The notes beneath the pieces were generated by a model. It searched no databases. It was not told the DNA's origin and worked only from the letters and a program-made list of their open reading frames with translations. The position numbers were made by a program, and so were the translations under genes. This document shows positions 30,495-39,877 of a stretch of DNA of 39,877 bases, one piece after another. Position 1 is the stretch's first letter, and each line of letters begins with the position of its first letter. Source of the stretch: a virus; IMG/VR virus record IMGVR_UViG_3300020456_000192, positions 1 to 39,877 of that record; one strand, 5' to 3'.

Positions 30495-30957
30495 TTATCT
30501 TGAAGGAACTTTTGACAATAAAGAACAAGCATTAAAATATCCCACCAGATATGCTAGAATTATTATTAATCATGAATGGATTGGTGGCGATTGGTTTCAT
30601 GGTACACAAGCATACTATCATTCTCAGGATAAACCCTACAGGGAATTTAGGATGCGTGTTTACCCAGAAGGGGAAAAATTTCGCGTCAAAAATTTTGACA
30701 TAAAAGGCGAGACATATAAAGAGGGATGTGATACACTGTTTAAATTAGTTGGCAATAAGTTCTATGGCAAGAACACCGATTGTAATTGCTGGATCCAATG
30801 GAAAGGGATTAAAACTTACTTGACAAATGATATCATCCTAGGTTATAATTTCTATAACGTTATGGATTCGGGAATTGATCCTGAGACAGGTAAAAAACTT
30901 TGGGGTTCCCAGTGGGGACATTTAGAATTTAAACGCCAAACTAGCTCAGCTGGATAG
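30478..30957 (+). CDS. cpeT: Second CpeT/CpcT-family protein
   Basis: The 159-aa protein begins FHDYLEGTFDNKEQALKYPTRYARIIINHEW, an even clearer CpeT/CpcT start than the first copy, followed by QAYYHSQDKPYREFRMRVY, CDTLFKLVGNKFYG and NDIILGYNFYNVMDSG...WGHLEF. It probably acts on bilin attachment or carriage. The two copies differ widely, so they may handle different substrates. Its last 23 bases form the 5' strand of tRNA-Thr, so the terminal residues (QTSSAG) are fixed by tRNA sequence. Confidence 0.85.
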   Translation: MTLFHDYLEGTFDNKEQALKYPTRYARIIINHEWIGGDWFHGTQAYYHSQDKPYREFRMRVYPEGEKFRVKNFDIKGETYKEGCDTLFKLVGNKFYGKNTDCNCWIQWKGIKTYLTNDIILGYNFYNVMDSGIDPETGKKLWGSQWGHLEFKRQTSSAG

Positions 30958-31008
30958 AGCAACTGTTTTGTAAACAGTAGGTCAACGGTTCAAGTCCGTT
31001 GTTTGGCT
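30935..31008 (+). tRNA. tRNA-Thr (TGT), overlapping the cpeT 3' end
   Basis: GCCAAAC (30935-30941) pairs with GTTTGGC (31001-31007), T discriminator; anticodon stem ACTGT/ACAGT with loop TTTGTAA (TGT); T-stem CAACG/CGTTG around TTCAAGT-type loop. The first 23 bases are also coding. Confidence 0.92.
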
Positions 31009-31284
31009 TTCCACTTTTGTGGAATAGGTGACGCCACCGATATTTCGGACAGGGGTTCAACTCCCCTCACCTCCATTCACGGGGGTGCCATGGTTTTGAC
31101 GGGGTATAAGGAGCGTGACTGAAACCTGCTTGGATAAGCAACCAATAGATGCAAAAACATCTGATGTCGCAGCGAACAACATCGTTGCATTCTCCCGCAC
31201 TCGCGAACTTGCGACTGCCTGAATGGGAGATGGGGGTTAGACTAGCCTTCTTACCCAAGTAGTCCATGGGGGTGAAATGCCCCC
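31009..31284 (+). ncRNA. ssrA: Circularly permuted two-piece tmRNA
   Basis: tmRNA rescues stalled ribosomes and tags the peptide for degradation. The acceptor piece comes first (about 31009-31075): TTCGGAC, T-arm AGGGG/CCCCT (31051-31067) and CACCTCC plus A. After only five bases (31076-31080) the coding piece starts GGGGGTGCCATGG with TTTTGACGGGG, as in tmRNA 5' ends. GGGGGTG (31081-31087) pairs with CACCTCC (31068-31074), with a G-T at the third pair, the Ala-tRNA identity element. GATGTC precedes resume codon GCA (31169-31171), and the tag AANNIVAFSRTRELATA ends at TGA (31220-31222). Piece ends outside these helices are estimated. Confidence 0.9.
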
Positions 31285-31288
31285 TTCT

Positions 31289-31360
31289 GGGGGTTTAGCT
31301 CAGCGGTAGAGCGCCTGCTTTGCAAGCAGGATGTCAGGAGTTCAAATCTCCTAACCTCCA
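31289..31360 (+). tRNA. tRNA-Ala (TGC)
   Basis: GGGGGTT (31289-31295) pairs with AACCTCC (31353-31359), with the G3-T70 identity pair; anticodon stem CCTGC/GCAGG, loop TTTGCAA (TGC); T-loop TTCAAAT. This is the amino acid that charges tmRNA. Confidence 0.95.
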
Positions 31361-31561
31361 TTGGAACCTGATCAGTTCCATAGGGTGTGACTGAATAACT
31401 CTGTTGGAATTTGGCGGAGTAAGGTAAATGGTTAGAGGTGGTACTCGCCTTCCCTAAAGGAAGTGAACCCGAACCAAGGGAACCATTGTTGTTATGTACA
31501 AATATTCGCTTTAGCGATTCCCATAACTTGAGGGTATGAAGTATTCCCTCCACCCAACCAA
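31361..31561 (+). ncRNA. Unassigned structured RNA between tRNA-Ala and tRNA-Asn
   Basis: There is no coding potential on the + strand, but many helices: TGGAAC/GTTCCA (31362-31380), GGCGGAGTA/TACTCGCC with a bulge, CTTCC/GGAAG, GTTATG/CATAAC enclosing TCGC/GCGA, GAGGG/CCCTC, and long-range GGGTG/CACCC plus TTGG/CCAA closing the ends. It has no intact tRNA cloverleaf and matches no RNA family I know. It could be processed by the flanking tRNA enzymes. Confidence 0.5.
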
Positions 31562-31644: not shown

Positions 31645-31684
31645 ATCTGAGATCAGATCTTAGTAACCGCAGCGGTTGAGTAAT

Positions 31685-34600
31685 ATGGCTTTGACTAGAC
31701 TTGACAATCTTATTAGTAGTAAAACTGGTAAGTATTTGTACGTCTCCCCCGATGACTTCAATGCATCGGATGAGTTGAATAACAGGGGTAATTCACCCAT
31801 TAGACCTTTTAAGTCTATTCAACGTGCTTTTTTAGAAATAGCAAGGTATTCGTACCTACCAGGACCAGATAACGATAGGTTTGACCAATTTACGGTCATG
31901 CTTATGCCTGGTAATCACTACATTGATAACCGTCCAGGTCTTGTAGGGACCACAGGTATTGATGCGTTTGCTTTCAATCAAACGATGAATGAGTGGGAAG
32001 ATAATTCCAACTTAGATATTTCTGATCCTAACAATATTCTTTACAGGTTTAACAATACTGAAGGTGGTGCTATTCTTCCTAGAGGTTCATCTCTTGTAGG
32101 TTATGATCTCCGTCGTACTATTGTTCGTCCTCTTTATGTTCCTGATCCTGCTGATAGACTAGAAAAAAGATCTGCAATTTTTAATGTTACTGGTGGTTGC
32201 TATTTCTGGCAGTTCACTATTAAAGATGGTGATTTAGAACCTTCCTCACCTCTTTATGACAAGAATGATGGTGTAGGTAAAGTATACTATCAGAATGGAT
32301 ACTGGGATCAGTTAGCAATTCCTAATTATTCTCACCATAAGCTAACTGTATTTGAATATGCAGATAAGGAAGAACTAGGTCTATATTATCAGAAAGTTGC
32401 TAAGGCATTCTCACAGTATCAACCAACAATTGATGATCCTGGTGAATTCAGCGAGAGAATTCAAGAAACTAGAATCGTTGGTCCTCTGTCGGATATCCGT
32501 TCTATTGAAAGTATTAAGTGTAGTGATTCTTCTCCTGCAGGAACAATTACAGTTGAAGTTACTACAAAGGTTAATCACGGATACTTTAAGAACCAGTTCG
32601 TTTCCATTGAGAACAATGGTCTAGATGATCAACTCAATGGTACTTTCCCCGTAGAAGATATTGATCTGGTAGACGGTAGAAAGTTCACATACAAAATTCC
32701 TGGAACTGTTGCAGCTCTTGGAACTAGCGTAAGTCTTGTTAGCGGAACTGTATACACAGCACAAAGCGGACTAAGTGCAAACGCGGTAGTTAAAGCGGAA
32801 GTTGACTCTGTTGAATCCGCATCTCCGTATGTCTTTAACTGTTCTATCCGTTCTACTTGGGGTATTTGCGGTATTTGGGCGAATGGTTTGAAAGCCACTG
32901 GTTTCAAATCAATGGTTATCGCTCAGTATACGGGTGTTTCGCTCCAGAAAGATGATAGAGCATTCATTCGTTACGATGAATATTCTAACACGTTCAATCA
33001 GGCATCACTAACTGATGCATTTGCAACAGTACCTTACCACACTAAGGGTGATGCATACTGGAAGGATGATTGGAGAAACTTCCACGTTCGTGCATCTGAT
33101 GACGCATTTATTCAGAACGTTTCTATCTTCGCTGTTGGTTTCGCTGATCACTTCCTGATGGAGTCAGGTGGTGACATGTCAATCACCAACTCTAACTCCA
33201 ACTTTGGTAATACCTCATTACACGCAATTGGTTTCAAAGGATTTGCGTTTAATCAGGACAAGGGTGGATACATCACTGATATTATTCCACCAAAAACTAT
33301 TCCTGAAACCCAAGGGAATACGAAAAAGAATGCTTACTACACCATTGATGTAAAGGCATCAAATGATCCTAACAACCACAGTAAGATCTACTATGGTGAT
33401 GATGAAGCATATGATCCTGGCAAGAGACCAGCAGCATCTATTGATGGATTCCGTATTGGTGCTAGAAGTGATGAAAAACTATATGTTAAACTAACTCCTA
33501 GAAGTGCTGGCGCAGGTAACATTTATAATGCTACCCTATCTCCTAATGGATTTAAGAAATTTACTGCAACTGCATCTATTCTTAATCCTAGCAGTCTTAC
33601 TATTAATAATAAAGATCTTGATGCTGCAGATAGAATTGAAGAGAACAAAAACTTCATTGCACATGAAGCATATGGTTACATTACTGGAAAATATCCAAGT
33701 CTTGTAATTAAATCAGGTATCACTATTGAAAAGTGCCGTCGTGATATTGGTTATTTGATTGATGCTGCTGTACAAGATCTAAGATTGGGTGGTAACATCA
33801 ATACGATTCAGGCAGCTGAATCATATTATGTTGGTAATAACCTTTCTTATATTACTGGTGAACTTAATGAAACTCTAGAAGGATACAACTACGCCAGAGA
33901 TTTAGCAATCGCAGCAATGCGTAACTTTGCATATCTCCGTCAGGGAACTTCTACTACCGCAGCATCTTCTATTGTAAACATTGGAGATACTTCTGGTATT
34001 GTTCAGGGCATGGTTGTCGCTGACTATGATCCTTCTGAGTTTACTGATGGTAAACTAAATGCTGGTGCTTCACGTCCTAATTCTCCTGTAATTCCTGATA
34101 ACACCTATGTTAAGCGTGTTATTGATGCTACTACAATTGAGCTCGGACAAAAAGCAGTATTCAGTGAGAAGAAATTAGTATCTGATCGTTTTGGAGATGC
34201 TAAGGATCAAATTCTTGCTAACAAAGAATTCATCGCTGCTGAAGCATATGACCGTATGGTCCTTGACTTCCCTGGCTTTGTTACTCCTACAGGAAATCCT
34301 CAGGATTGTAAGGATGACATCATTGATGTTATTGAGGCAATTGCAGAGAACACTGCTTTCGGTGGTAATGCCGAAACTTATGATGCAGCATACCTTTATG
34401 AAACTGGTGCTCACGTAGCAGGTGAGGAAGATCAAACTATCAAGGCATTTACATATGCTAGAGATATGTGTATTCAGGTTATGCGTAATGAGGATGTATT
34501 CATCTTCGGTACACATGGTCTAACACAGTCTAAAGATACTACTATTACATATGTTGCTCCTGAACTTGTTAAAGATCGCTATGGAGACGCACGTAATCTA

Positions 34601-37600
34601 ATTCTTGCTAACAAAGAACTTATTGCTGAAGAAGCAGTAGCAAGGATGATGATTGAGTTTCCTAATCATCAGTATGGTGCTGGATACACCTCCGCTGATT
34701 GTGTTGATGACGTTAGAGATCTTCTTGAAGCAGTTGCTGACAACCTAGCATATGGTGGTAACGATAAGACATGGGATGCAGCATACTCTTATGTTAAAGG
34801 TGCTCACGTAGCAGGTGAAGAGTCAGAAACTGCATATGCGTTTGATCAAGCAAAGGAGATGGCTTCTCAGGTAATGAGAAACCAGAAAGTACTTTCTATT
34901 GGATCTCATGGTCTAACTCAGACATATGGTAACGCTCAACACACATGGGCAGGTGGCACAGCAACTGCTGCAGTACAGTCTGGTGGTGGATATAACCACA
35001 CATTTGTATCTGCTACTGCTGGCGCTATTTCATCTGGTGGTAACTACGCACATACATTTGTATCTGCTGTTGCAAATGGAATCACAGCAAACACGGGCAC
35101 TCAATACACAGTAACGGGTGCTGCATATGATCCTGCTTCAGGTGATATTGTATTCACTAGTGCAAACCATGGATTATCAACTGGTAATACTATTACTATT
35201 GCTGATAATGCATTAACCTTCACTTGTGATATGGATAATAATGCTACTCAGCATGTATATCCACGTCCAACAGATCCTGCTTCTGGACAAGCATTATCAA
35301 TTACAAATGCAACTCCATCTACATTCACAGTTAATGTGGGTGCATCACCTATTGTTCAGTTTAACGTATCTGCTGCAGATTACAATCCTACTACAGGATT
35401 GATGACATTGACGATTGGTAATCACACTTTATCTGGTGGCACAAGTGTCAGGATTGCTGATAACTCATTGACATTCACTTGTGAGATGGATGGCAATACT
35501 TCTAATAAGACTTATCCTAGATCAAGTGACCCTTCATATCAAACATCAGTTAACATTACTAATGTAACAGCAACAACAATTACTTTAGATGTTGGTGCAT
35601 CACCTATCGTAAATCATGACGTTACGAGTGCATCTTACGATCCAATTACAGGTACAATGGTACTTACGATTGGTAATCATTCCTTGACAACAGGGACAAG
35701 TGTTAAGATTGCTGATAATGCATTAACCTTCACTTGCAGCCAGGATGGAAATGCAACCAAGCACACTTATCCTCGCCCATCTGATCCATTCTATGACAAT
35801 GCTATCAATATTACTGCAGTAACTCCAACTACAATTACACTCAACGTTGGTATTGCTAATTCTGGTTTTGATACTATTACATACAACTTACCACAACCAG
35901 TAATTGATCGTAATGGTGATGCTCGCAATCTAATCATTGCTAATAAGGCAGTGATTGCTGCTGAAGCATATGAAAGAATGATGGCTGAGAATCCTGGATA
36001 TGTCCATCCAACTGGATATGGTCCACAGGATTGTATTGATGATATTCTAGATTTTGTCAATGAAGTTTCCTACAACCTAGCATTTGGTGGAAATGACAGA
36101 ACTTGGGATATGGCAAACCTATATGTTGTAGGACAACATGTCGTAGGTGAAGAACTACAAACCACTCAAGCGTTTGAGTATGCTAGAGACCTAATGGTCC
36201 AAGCAATGAGAAATGAAACCATGCTCCTTATTGGTAGCCATGGTTTAACTCAGACAAAAGATACAACTATTACAGTTAATGCTCCTACACCTGTAGATAA
36301 TAAGTCTGCAGATGCAAGAAACTTGATCCTAGCAAACACAGACTTTATCTCTGAGATTGCTTTGGGTAGAATGTTAGCAAACTTCCCAACATATTCATCT
36401 CCTGCTGGATATACGACTGACGATTGTCTTGATGACATTAAAGATGTTGTAAATGTTGTTGCTCATAACTTAGCATATGGTGGTAACGATAGAGTATGGG
36501 ATGCTGCTAATTTCTATGCTACTGGAGGACATGCTTCAGGATCTGTAAACGAAACAATCTACGCATTTACTCAAGCTCGTGACATTATAATTGAGGTCAT
36601 GAGAAATGAGGATGTAACTGTTGGCGGACATACAACTCTAACTCAAAGTAAGGATTTAACAATCACTGCTGATAGTACACCTAAGTGTGCATCGCAGGTT
36701 GCTACAGTTAATACCCTAATTCAAATTCTTACTAATACAGTACAGTCACCGAACCTTCTATATGGTATTACACGTACTTTCTCTAATGCAAAATGTAATG
36801 ATGTAAAGGCAACACTAACAACTCTAACTGATATTGTTACTACTGCAGTTAATACGCCATCTTCTCTTGCTAATGTTGCAAGAACTCTATCTGTTGGATC
36901 ATGTGAAGATGCAAGAACTACTATTACTACACTCTTTGATATTGTCAAGAATGCAGTATTGACACCAGCATCACTTTCTAATGTCCTTAGAACAGTATCT
37001 AACGGATCTTGCCAAAATGTAGCATCTGCTATCACAACTCTATTCCAGATTGTTAACAATACTATCGCTAATACTGGATATTTACAGTCAGTTGATAGAG
37101 TTGAGTCCCCACTTGGTCTTGCATTTGGTCCATCTGTAAATGCTAATGCATCTACAACAAATTCATATCTATACTTTACTTTAACTGATGGAGTTTATAC
37201 TTCTGAGTATTCTCCAACTACTGATGATACGATCACACAACACACTTCATATCCTGAGTGTGCTGATCAAGCATCTGCTATCCGTCAGTATTTTACTAAT
37301 ATTTCTACCATTATTCAGACTGGACTTAACTCTGTTCCTAGAGTTGAACCATCTCAGTTAACTACAGAACTTGCTTCTAGAGCAACTGTATGGACACTTA
37401 GAACTGGTTCTGGATCTAACCCTCACAACCTAGAAACTGGTACTCCTATCAGATTGGTTCCACGTGCTCGTTATGATAGTGTAACCAATTCTTATGTTGA
37501 TGTTGATAAGAGAAAGGTCAGACTTCCTAATGGATTCAATACTAATGAAGAGTATTATGTAATTGCTCCTGCAAGAAAGACAAAACCAGAACCTTATGAG

Positions 37601-39877
37601 GGTACATCTGTATTCAATGGAACTGATCAAACAAAGATCATGCTCGCAAGCAGCAAAGAAAACGCTGCAGCAGGTATTTACATTCACTCTGCTGAAGTAG
37701 AGGCTATTGATCCTGATATTGAAATTGATGTATATCAGTTTGTACTAGATGACAACTTTGATCTACATCAGTACTCTTGTATTCTAGAAGCAAATACTAA
37801 CTCTCAAATCCGTACTGACGTACCACACATCTTTGATATTCCTTTTGCAGATATTTCTGGTCATCAGGTATTCTTCAGAGAGAATGAGGGTGGAAGTGTT
37901 CCTCTTGTAGGTTCTAACTACGCAGGAGATCCTTCTATTGCTGACGGTAATGGTAGAATTCGTGGAGATAAGTTCTTCTGGGCAAGATATCAGACTGAGA
38001 AGACTTTTACAATTCACGCAACTAAGGCAGATGCAATTGCTGATATTAATGCAATTACATTCCAGACAGGTTCTTATGACTTCTCTGTATTCGCAGACAA
38101 GCGTGAATCACCTGTAAGATTTGATCCATCATATCTAAATCCAAACACCACACCAGCAATCTATGGTAAGTGGTATATGCAGGTTGAAGATCATTCTTCT
38201 AATATTAATGATCCTCAGTATGAGTATAGCATTTTAACTAGACTACATGAGAACACTTATAGTGATATCTCTGGTCAAGATAAAACTAATGATGCTTGGT
38301 TTGAAAGAATCAAGGATGAAAGAGACAAAGATGATCGTATCTATCGTCTACGTTATGTCATTCCTGATTATTTACAGGCAGTTCGTGATCCTATTAATGG
38401 TTTCTCCATTAAGATCCGTAAGGACGAGACTAGAAAACTTCTACCACAGAAACTTGTACTTAAGCCTGTCTCTGGTGCAGTAACAAAGGCAAGATTCTTT
38501 AACCCAGTTCAACCAAACGAAGTTATTGGTTTCACTAAAGCAGACTTTATTAGCAATAGTCTAAATGAAGAGTCTGCATATGATCCATATAAGAGAGATA
38601 TTGTAGGAACAACTCAGTATGCTAAGTCTATTGAGACTTCTAACTATGTCTCAATGACAATTCAGTCTGGTAGATATTTCACTGATAGTCAAAGTGGTGA
38701 CGAATTACTAGAGTTGACTGTATTTGATCTTGGTATCACCAACGTTGGATTGTTAAATGAAACCTTCACTACTGTTAAAATTACGGCACCTCAGGGTGGT
38801 TCTTTCGTTGCTGATAAGACTCAATCAAATTCAGCAAATAGAATTGATTGGTATGGTAACTCCTCGGGTTATGCATTCATCCATGCAGCACTTAATGTCC
38901 CTAACACGAGTGATTGGTACTTAATCCTTAAGGGTATCTCTGGTAAGATTGATTATTCTGAGTTTGAAAATACTAGATTTGCCCAAGATGCTACATTTGC
39001 TGATCTATTAACTGATGAAGATTTTGGTAAGTCACTATACATTAAGGATCTTATCCGTAAGGAATATCCAGAATACTACTATAGACAACTCGGATCTAAA
39101 GTATACACTATAACTCCTGGCGATATCATCACTGATGATGCAAATGTTCAGTTCTACGTAGATTCTGTAACTGACACTGGTGAACTAGATGATACCTTCT
39201 ACATCTTTGATGTTGAGGAGATCCAGCGTCGTATTTACGGTCAGCAAGATGGTATTTACTATCTAACTGCTGTTCGTGGTAACATCTCACCATTCCCAAC
39301 TGGTGCTGGTAATCAGGGTAACTTCCGTAACTTTAAGTTCTCCCAACCAATCAGCAAACTATATCCACTCAACTACAAGAACGATCCTCTCTGGTTCAAG
39401 CAGTTAGATAATACAGAAGTTGATGTTCCTGCAACATCTTCTGCTGCTGATAACTATACTCATGGTCTTGTAAGAGTTAATGACTTTAAAGGTTCATTAA
39501 CCAGAGAAATGGTTTCTGACTTTACCACTCAGCAAGCACTTATTCAGAACACTTATACACAAGTAAGTTCTACTATTGATAATAGACTAAGAGCTCAGAA
39601 AGGTAACGCTGCATCTGGTTCAGAAGATCGTAAGATTCCAATTGCTGGTGACAGCACTGTAATGTCTGATCAGAGACTCTATGTTGAATTACGTAGACCA
39701 TCTATCGCTCGTGCTGGTAACCACACGTTTGAATATCTTGGTTTTGGTCCAGGTAACTACTCTACTGGTCTACCTGCTAGACAGGAGATTGTTCTCACCC
39801 CAACTCAAGACTTCTATGCACAGTCTAAGAAGCAAGATGGTGGTCTCGTATTCTACACTGGTCTAAACTCTAATGGT
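31685..39877 (+). CDS. Giant virion structural protein, 3' end outside window (at least 2731 aa)
   Basis: One frame is open from ATG 31685 to the last base. The N-terminus MALTRLDNLISSKTGKYLYVSPDDFNASD... with RPFKSIQRAFLEIARYSY and MLMPGNHYIDNRPG looks like the start of a right-handed beta-helix, as in tail fibres and spikes. The middle holds five helical repeats of about 130 aa (from about 33640, 34184, 34574, 35906, 36296), three 85-aa beta repeats (from 35126) and three and a half 36-aa Cys-bounded repeats (36686-37080). It is probably a baseplate-attached fibre or scaffold protein. Confidence 0.88.
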   Translation, partial: MALTRLDNLISSKTGKYLYVSPDDFNASDELNNRGNSPIRPFKSIQRAFLEIARYSYLPGPDNDRFDQFTVMLMPGNHYIDNRPGLVGTTGIDAFAFNQTMNEWEDNSNLDISDPNNILYRFNNTEGGAILPRGSSLVGYDLRRTIVRPLYVPDPADRLEKRSAIFNVTGGCYFWQFTIKDGDLEPSSPLYDKNDGVGKVYYQNGYWDQLAIPNYSHHKLTVFEYADKEELGLYYQKVAKAFSQYQPTIDDPGEFSERIQETRIVGPLSDIRSIESIKCSDSSPAGTITVEVTTKVNHGYFKNQFVSIENNGLDDQLNGTFPVEDIDLVDGRKFTYKIPGTVAALGTSVSLVSGTVYTAQSGLSANAVVKAEVDSVESASPYVFNCSIRSTWGICGIWANGLKATGFKSMVIAQYTGVSLQKDDRAFIRYDEYSNTFNQASLTDAFATVPYHTKGDAYWKDDWRNFHVRASDDAFIQNVSIFAVGFADHFLMESGGDMSITNSNSNFGNTSLHAIGFKGFAFNQDKGGYITDIIPPKTIPETQGNTKKNAYYTIDVKASNDPNNHSKIYYGDDEAYDPGKRPAASIDGFRIGARSDEKLYVKLTPRSAGAGNIYNATLSPNGFKKFTATASILNPSSLTINNKDLDAADRIEENKNFIAHEAYGYITGKYPSLVIKSGITIEKCRRDIGYLIDAAVQDLRLGGNINTIQAAESYYVGNNLSYITGELNETLEGYNYARDLAIAAMRNFAYLRQGTSTTAASSIVNIGDTSGIVQGMVVADYDPSEFTDGKLNAGASRPNSPVIPDNTYVKRVIDATTIELGQKAVFSEKKLVSDRFGDAKDQILANKEFIAAEAYDRMVLDFPGFVTPTGNPQDCKDDIIDVIEAIAENTAFGGNAETYDAAYLYETGAHVAGEEDQTIKAFTYARDMCIQVMRNEDVFIFGTHGLTQSKDTTITYVAPELVKDRYGDARNLILANKELIAEEAVARMMIEFPNHQYGAGYTSADCVDDVRDLLEAVADNLAYGGNDKTWDAAYSYVKGAHVAGEESETAYAFDQAKEMASQVMRNQKVLSIGSHGLTQTYGNAQHTWAGGTATAAVQSGGGYNHTFVSATAGAISSGGNYAHTFVSAVANGITANTGTQYTVTGAAYDPASGDIVFTSANHGLSTGNTITIADNALTFTCDMDNNATQHVYPRPTDPASGQALSITNATPSTFTVNVGASPIVQFNVSAADYNPTTGLMTLTIGNHTLSGGTSVRIADNSLTFTCEMDGNTSNKTYPRSSDPSYQTSVNITNVTATTITLDVGASPIVNHDVTSASYDPITGTMVLTIGNHSLTTGTSVKIADNALTFTCSQDGNATKHTYPRPSDPFYDNAINITAVTPTTITLNVGIANSGFDTITYNLPQPVIDRNGDARNLIIANKAVIAAEAYERMMAENPGYVHPTGYGPQDCIDDILDFVNEVSYNLAFGGNDRTWDMANLYVVGQHVVGEELQTTQAFEYARDLMVQAMRNETMLLIGSHGLTQTKDTTITVNAPTPVDNKSADARNLILANTDFISEIALGRMLANFPTYSSPAGYTTDDCLDDIKDVVNVVAHNLAYGGNDRVWDAANFYATGGHASGSVNETIYAFTQARDIIIEVMRNEDVTVGGHTTLTQSKDLTITADSTPKCASQVATVNTLIQILTNTVQSPNLLYGITRTFSNAKCNDVKATLTTLTDIVTTAVNTPSSLANVARTLSVGSCEDARTTITTLFDIVKNAVLTPASLSNVLRTVSNGSCQNVASAITTLFQIVNNTIANTGYLQSVDRVESPLGLAFGPSVNANASTTNSYLYFTLTDGVYTSEYSPTTDDTITQHTSYPECADQASAIRQYFTNISTIIQTGLNSVPRVEPSQLTTELASRATVWTLRTGSGSNPHNLETGTPIRLVPRARYDSVTNSYVDVDKRKVRLPNGFNTNEEYYVIAPARKTKPEPYEGTSVFNGTDQTKIMLASSKENAAAGIYIHSAEVEAIDPDIEIDVYQFVLDDNFDLHQYSCILEANTNSQIRTDVPHIFDIPFADISGHQVFFRENEGGSVPLVGSNYAGDPSIADGNGRIRGDKFFWARYQTEKTFTIHATKADAIADINAITFQTGSYDFSVFADKRESPVRFDPSYLNPNTTPAIYGKWYMQVEDHSSNINDPQYEYSILTRLHENTYSDISGQDKTNDAWFERIKDERDKDDRIYRLRYVIPDYLQAVRDPINGFSIKIRKDETRKLLPQKLVLKPVSGAVTKARFFNPVQPNEVIGFTKADFISNSLNEESAYDPYKRDIVGTTQYAKSIETSNYVSMTIQSGRYFTDSQSGDELLELTVFDLGITNVGLLNETFTTVKITAPQGGSFVADKTQSNSANRIDWYGNSSGYAFIHAALNVPNTSDWYLILKGISGKIDYSEFENTRFAQDATFADLLTDEDFGKSLYIKDLIRKEYPEYYYRQLGSKVYTITPGDIITDDANVQFYVDSVTDTGELDDTFYIFDVEEIQRRIYGQQDGIYYLTAVRGNISPFPTGAGNQGNFRNFKFSQPISKLYPLNYKNDPLWFKQLDNTEVDVPATSSAADNYTHGLVRVNDFKGSLTREMVSDFTTQQALIQNTYTQVSSTIDNRLRAQKGNAASGSEDRKIPIAGDSTVMSDQRLYVELRRPSIARAGNHTFEYLGFGPGNYSTGLPARQEIVLTPTQDFYAQSKKQDGGLVFYTGLNSNG

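Follow-up and report, generated by a model that had tools for sequence, protein, structure and literature searches.

A permuted, cyanobacterial-type tmRNA gene in a marine cyanomyovirus-like genome, with remodelled tags and nested tRNA genes among its phage relatives

Introduction

The closest described counterparts of the gene reported here are the tmRNAs of Prochlorococcus and marine Synechococcus (Rfam RF01851), with which it shares the permuted order, a G-U third acceptor pair, the T-arm, the tag core ANNIV.FSR and a short spacer between the two pieces (5-6 nt in several Prochlorococcus). Northern blots of Prochlorococcus have revealed two tmRNA molecules (PMC1242208). Among phage genomes, 53 two-piece tmRNAs have been counted, 50 of them marine or aquatic, and the accompanying tree places cyanobacterial phages beside cyanobacteria (PMC9004378); a separate survey lists 79 unique phage tmRNAs (PMC11915505). 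The two-piece tmRNAs of methylophage Melnitz and of pelagiphages are likewise phage-borne, permuted and marine, but are of the alphaproteobacterial type and lie under a glutamine riboswitch (PMC9004378), whereas the gene described here is of the cyanobacterial type and sits within a tRNA cluster.

Here we analyse this gene in a virus record of 39,877 bases (the window, meaning the whole stretch of DNA). Its presence on a phage is not in itself new, given the 2022 report of two-piece phage tmRNAs with a cyanobacterial branch (PMC9004378). The identification as a tmRNA is correct, and both the kind of gene and its short spacer are already known; the remodelled tags of the phage genes and the tRNAs nested in some relatives are worth following.

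Results

Positions 31009-31284 of the window comprise a complete cyanobacterial-type permuted (two-piece) tmRNA gene. The cyano_tmRNA model RF01851 matches 30993-31283 over its full length (model positions 1-288, 154.5 bits against a gathering score of 70, E 1.1e-42), and tmRNA_permuted (RF04321) matches the same locus with 85.8 bits. ARAGORN, which the initial annotation had proposed alongside the RF01851 search, calls a permuted tmRNA (tmRNA*) with tag frame, stop and the tag AKTSDVAANNIVAFSRTRELATA. The sequence, RF04321 and ARAGORN agree on the permuted order that had been claimed, and since the 3′ half precedes the 5′ half, a standard one-piece tmRNA of the RF00023 type is ruled out. A chance origin of this tmRNA-like sequence is excluded.

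The 3′ (acceptor) piece spans 31009-31075 on the + strand according to the RF01851 alignment, ARAGORN and the sequence, its 5′ end at 31009 being an estimate. It contains a hairpin (TTCCAC/GTGGAA, 31010-31024), the 3′ strand of the long tRNA-domain helix and the T-arm, and terminates with CACCTCC (31068-31074) and the discriminator A (31075); CCA is not encoded. The segment TTCAC, described earlier as a 5-nt insert between the pieces, is read directly at 31076-31080 (+ strand), in accord with the RF01851 alignment and the lengths in relatives, and is expected to be removed. The 5′ (coding) piece follows on the same strand at 31081-31284, opening with GGGGGTG (31081-31087), CCATGG (31088-31093) and TTTTGACGGGG (31094-31104) and closing with the terminal hairpin GGGGGTGAAATGCCCCC (31268-31284). 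The acceptor stem that joins the two pieces is complete, with seven of seven pairs and G-U at pair 3, just as first described. In pseudoknot-free folding, the coding piece alone beats 200 of 200 dinucleotide shuffles (z -3.7).

The predicted tag frame runs from 31151 to 31222 (+ strand), with an A at -4 of the resume codon GCA (31151-31153), 23 open codons, the C-terminal end -LATA and the stop TGA (31220-31222). This open frame rules out a tRNA-domain-only tmRNA of the DS6A type. The predicted resume codon itself lies in a small hairpin (AGATG-CAAAAA-CATCT, 31145-31165); at the matching place one relative, L005, has ATCTG-CAAAAA-CAGAT, as if compensated, an observation made by eye and uncounted.

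The window has a marine cyanomyovirus-like gene content, with matches to PHROG families for photosystem II D1, PhoH, a phosphate transporter subunit, a CpeT-like antenna protein, ferredoxin oxidoreductase, single-strand DNA binding protein, baseplate parts and tail lysozyme. ARAGORN and Rfam give the + strand order tRNA-Met, tRNA-Leu, tRNA-Thr, tmRNA, tRNA-Ala, manA RNA and tRNA-Asn. The upstream neighbour of the tmRNA is tRNA-Thr(tgt) (30935-31008, + strand, ARAGORN), and tRNA-Ala(tgc) (31288-31361, + strand, ARAGORN and Rfam tRNA) lies 3 nt downstream. The manA motif (RF01745, 123.6 bits) occupies 31362-31560 between tRNA-Ala and tRNA-Asn, and also occurs near the tmRNA of another viral contig (L295). 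Beyond the cluster, 31676-39877 is a single reading frame of at least 2734 codons that is still open where the window stops; in relatives, this position is taken by a gene for a fiber or peptidase S74 protein.

Synechococcus phage Sf-FS3 carries a tmRNA gene 90% identical across the full query, with the same predicted tag and likewise a 5-nt spacer. Further relatives occur in S-CAM1, S-CAM3, AG-345-P14, S-SSM7/S-SSM6a and S-CBWM1, and the phage relatives that were scanned all match RF01851. In their public records the gene lies under a "hypothetical protein" or is unannotated, and none is labelled tmRNA among the records shown. Such "hypothetical protein" genes over or into the tmRNA gene, as at 1836-2045 of L002 and in similar features of L003, L004 and L006, are probably misannotations. 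A standard tmRNA called by ARAGORN at 1218-1635 of L002 overlaps tRNAs and looks spurious.

The locus very probably encodes a functional two-piece tmRNA of the cyanobacterial type, host enzymes carrying out trans-translation with the phage RNA. From established tmRNA biology we infer transcription, cutting, charging, tagging and a benefit to the phage. The tmRNA would be transcribed together with the surrounding tRNA cluster, and host tRNA-processing enzymes would excise the 5-nt spacer, with RNase P cutting at 31081 and 3′ tRNA processing after 31075, followed by CCA addition to the 3′ piece. The acceptor stem and the long tRNA-domain helix would then hold the two pieces together, and host AlaRS would charge alanine through the G-U third pair. 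A search for an SmpB gene found none in 11 related phage records, while control genomes were found by the same search; host SmpB would therefore be used. With it, the phage tmRNA would free ribosomes stuck on broken mRNA in the infected cell and append a tag ending in -LATA. The earlier suggestion that a phage copy keeps ribosomes recycling while mRNA is destroyed is thus a plausible one. The host already has its own tmRNA, and the sequence offers no reason for a phage copy.

One possible reason is the tag. Compared with the host tag, that of the window has a 7-codon N-terminal extension and ends in -RELATA instead of -PVAA. The extension is found in 102 of 137 phage genes listed (near-copies counted, the window included) and is absent from 35, with no length other than seven codons seen. 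An A stands at -4 of the upstream resume codon in all 102 extended phage genes and in 103 of 104 hosts, against 1 of 102 at the inner codon, which supports the upstream start, within the limit that ARAGORN's choice of start may itself weigh that base. A 16-aa tag beginning at the inner, host-like ANNIV codon (31172 in the window) was set aside on the same count.

At the C-terminal end, host tags are almost uniform, with -VAA in 87 of 88 and -GAA in one, and 32 further host readings (from family-drawn genomes that partly overlap the first 88) all end in -VAA. Among 91 distinct phage genes listed, the frame is open and the final residue is A or V in every one, whereas -VAA appears in 24; one viral scan had demanded the tag core NNIVAF[ST], which leaves the tag end unconstrained. 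The tags of S-CAM1 and S-CAM3, for example, differ from that of the window in ending with -STVAA. The predicted S-SSM7 tag differs in its 31 aa, which include an extra hairpin-encoded segment. This hairpin-like segment in the tag frame, TTCTCTCGTATTCTTACGAGAGAA in S-SSM7 (L006, about 1626-1722), adds 8 codons relative to the -TRELATA class and is also seen in L256, L266 and L308.

These differences lead to the tentative proposal that the altered tag is the main benefit of the gene, in that proteins tagged during infection would be degraded more slowly or differently than with host -PVAA; it would add to a working phage tmRNA and not exclude it. The departure of most phage tags from the host ending, a trait that changes 10 times across the tree, speaks in its favour. 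So does work on E. coli ClpXP, for which the final Ala-Ala of the tag matters most and a change at either residue raises KM (PMC7652416), and the slower degradation of AAV-ended tags (PMC9382460), if cyanobacterial proteases treat tag ends as those of E. coli do, as we infer. This protease evidence comes from E. coli, however, and none was found for cyanobacteria; some phages retain -PVAA (L251), and all the ends are small and uncharged (A or V) and so compatible with ordinary degradation.

RNA structure may also drive the variation. In the -TRELATA class a hairpin with compensatory variation in its stem (TCGCG/CGCGA, TGACG/CGTCA, TAGCG/CGCTA, TCGCC/GGCGA) encodes the end of the tag, and covariation places the corresponding hairpin of the window, which encodes the -RELATA end, at 31197-31218 (+ strand). 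Across 16 distinct variants, 89.8% of cells pair, and the covariation score was reached by 0 of 500 shuffles and was far lower in slid registers; the shuffles ignore relatedness and so support the hairpin without proving it. Variation in the tag is thus tied in part to RNA structure, which counts against the altered tag as the main benefit.

That the gene instead came recently from a host and is a functionless passenger or a copy in decay is very unlikely. Phages do acquire host genes, and Synechococcus WH7803 itself has a decayed second coding piece (L433, CT971583, about 2209-2436; 153.6 bits to RF01851). The latter is without a 3′ piece, ARAGORN finds no gene there, and a second working gene is ruled out; at least two RF01851 matches also occur in a number of 201 host genomes. 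Across 71 aligned phage sequences, however, double changes maintain base pairing in three helices, namely the acceptor stem, the T-stem and the long tRNA-domain helix, acceptor pair 5 being G-C, A-U, C-G or U-A, and such compensatory changes imply selection on pairing. All genes that were delimited correctly have G-U as their third acceptor pair, the apparent exceptions being genes wrongly cut by the search pattern. Together with the covariance model, ARAGORN and the phage relatives, these compensatory changes bear out the initial annotation of a phage-borne cyanobacterial-type permuted tmRNA.

The phage genes also stand apart from those of hosts in the tree. A single change separates the two (SH-aLRT 98) among 105 phage and 25 host coding pieces, and the window falls within a phage clade of nine (SH-aLRT 97), nearest to L346, L348 and Sf-FS3; the tree is unrooted, with long branches that come together and weak support at many inner forks, so that it establishes neither which way the gene was transferred nor that the phage genes arose once. 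The window's relatives have the same extended tag, a further point against a passenger. Besides its place on a phage and in a separate tree lineage, the gene differs from host tmRNA in its RF01851 score, about half that of host genes (154 against about 300-329 bits), which indicates that its structure has drifted and counts against the reading of a working tmRNA.

Still more improbable is a decoy role, in which the phage RNA would titrate SmpB or ribosomes and so inhibit host trans-translation. Inhibition has been reported for a DS6A-like molecule, the tRNA-domain-only RNA of mycobacteriophage DS6A (PMC4131195, PMC11915505), but DS6A is without a tag frame, whereas the divergent phages compared here all retain a tag frame with its resume context and stop. 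The intact tag frame thus makes a DS6A-like inhibitor unlikely and fits the preferred reading of a working tmRNA.

The initial annotation had also regarded the 5-nt spacer as unusual. In 88 host genes with readable tags, spacers range from 5 to 68 nt and seven are of 5 nt; four of these seven genes lie on contigs named Prochlorococcus, where the spacers include TAAAT, TACAT and CATAT. Five nucleotides is the commonest spacer length in phages (57 of 126 among entries listed, a tally that contains 3 host loci and some genes wrongly delimited by the search pattern). Given its occurrence in both Prochlorococcus and phages, the 5-nt segment is no evidence of anything new.

Of 115 cyanobacterial-type phage tmRNA loci listed, 17, on as many viral contigs and with 12 distinct sequences, enclose a complete tRNA between the two pieces, tRNA-Tyr in 13 and tRNA-Asn in 4 (L297 at 1234-1645 on the minus strand, L298, L311, L327, L332, L335, L336, L337, L343, L344, L350, L358, L371, L375, L377, L385 and L388). 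The window, with its 5-nt spacer, is without one. Several acceptor stems had looked odd (L297, L327, L313, L338, L339, L379) because the search pattern had picked up a T-arm that belongs to an adjacent or nested tRNA, and it was through these cases that the tRNA-in-spacer genes came to light. The junctions are tight, with 2-4 nt on each side, as in CACCTCCA-TT-[tRNA-Tyr]-TCCT-GGGGGTG, and RF01851 covers the whole gene in L297, L332 and L335. The trait requires seven changes on the tree and occurs in several phage sublineages. No nested tRNA was found in 164 other permuted tmRNA loci listed, none of 400 host-family genomes matched an exact pattern of the host consensus that allowed a spacer of 72-102 nt, and no record of an isolated phage covered 80% of such a gene. 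One nominally archaeal permuted tmRNA with a tRNA-Ala inside has been reported as a unique feature (PMC11915505); it shares the tRNA in the spacer with the cyanophage relatives and differs in being a single case with tRNA-Ala.

Such tight nesting suggests that the two pieces behave as separate members of a tRNA array, and it fits cutting at both spacer ends. That an uncut, single permuted molecule is the active form, 5 nt being too short for processing in a case known here from its sequence, is barely credible, given that neighbouring phage tRNAs are equally close (3 nt between tRNA-Met and tRNA-Leu), that 5-6 nt spacers occur in Prochlorococcus, where there are two tmRNA molecules (PMC1242208), that charging requires a free 3′ end and that a whole tRNA fills the gap in relatives.

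Discussion

In the literature searched we found no earlier report of phage tmRNA lineages apart from host copies, of extended or remodelled phage tags or, beyond the one nominally archaeal gene, of cyanophage tmRNAs with a tRNA in the spacer. We put forward, as a possibility that we hold to be well short of probable, that cyanophages possess old tmRNA lineages distinct from those of hosts. In these the two ends of the tag would have been rewritten, by a 7-codon N-terminal extension with a new resume site and by C-terminal ends that depart from the host's and partly lie in covarying RNA hairpins, and proteins tagged during infection would have a different proteolytic fate; the two-piece gene would act as two beads of a tRNA array, taking up and losing whole tRNA genes in relatives.

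Cyanomyoviruses are abundant in the sea, and the annotated records that we checked give the gene as a "hypothetical protein" or leave it blank, so that an influence of phages on ribosome rescue is easily overlooked. Processing can be tested directly in the relatives whose gene encloses a tRNA. If the remodelled tags alter the fate of proteins, the family would supply naturally occurring degradation tags and a direct way of testing why phages have a tmRNA.
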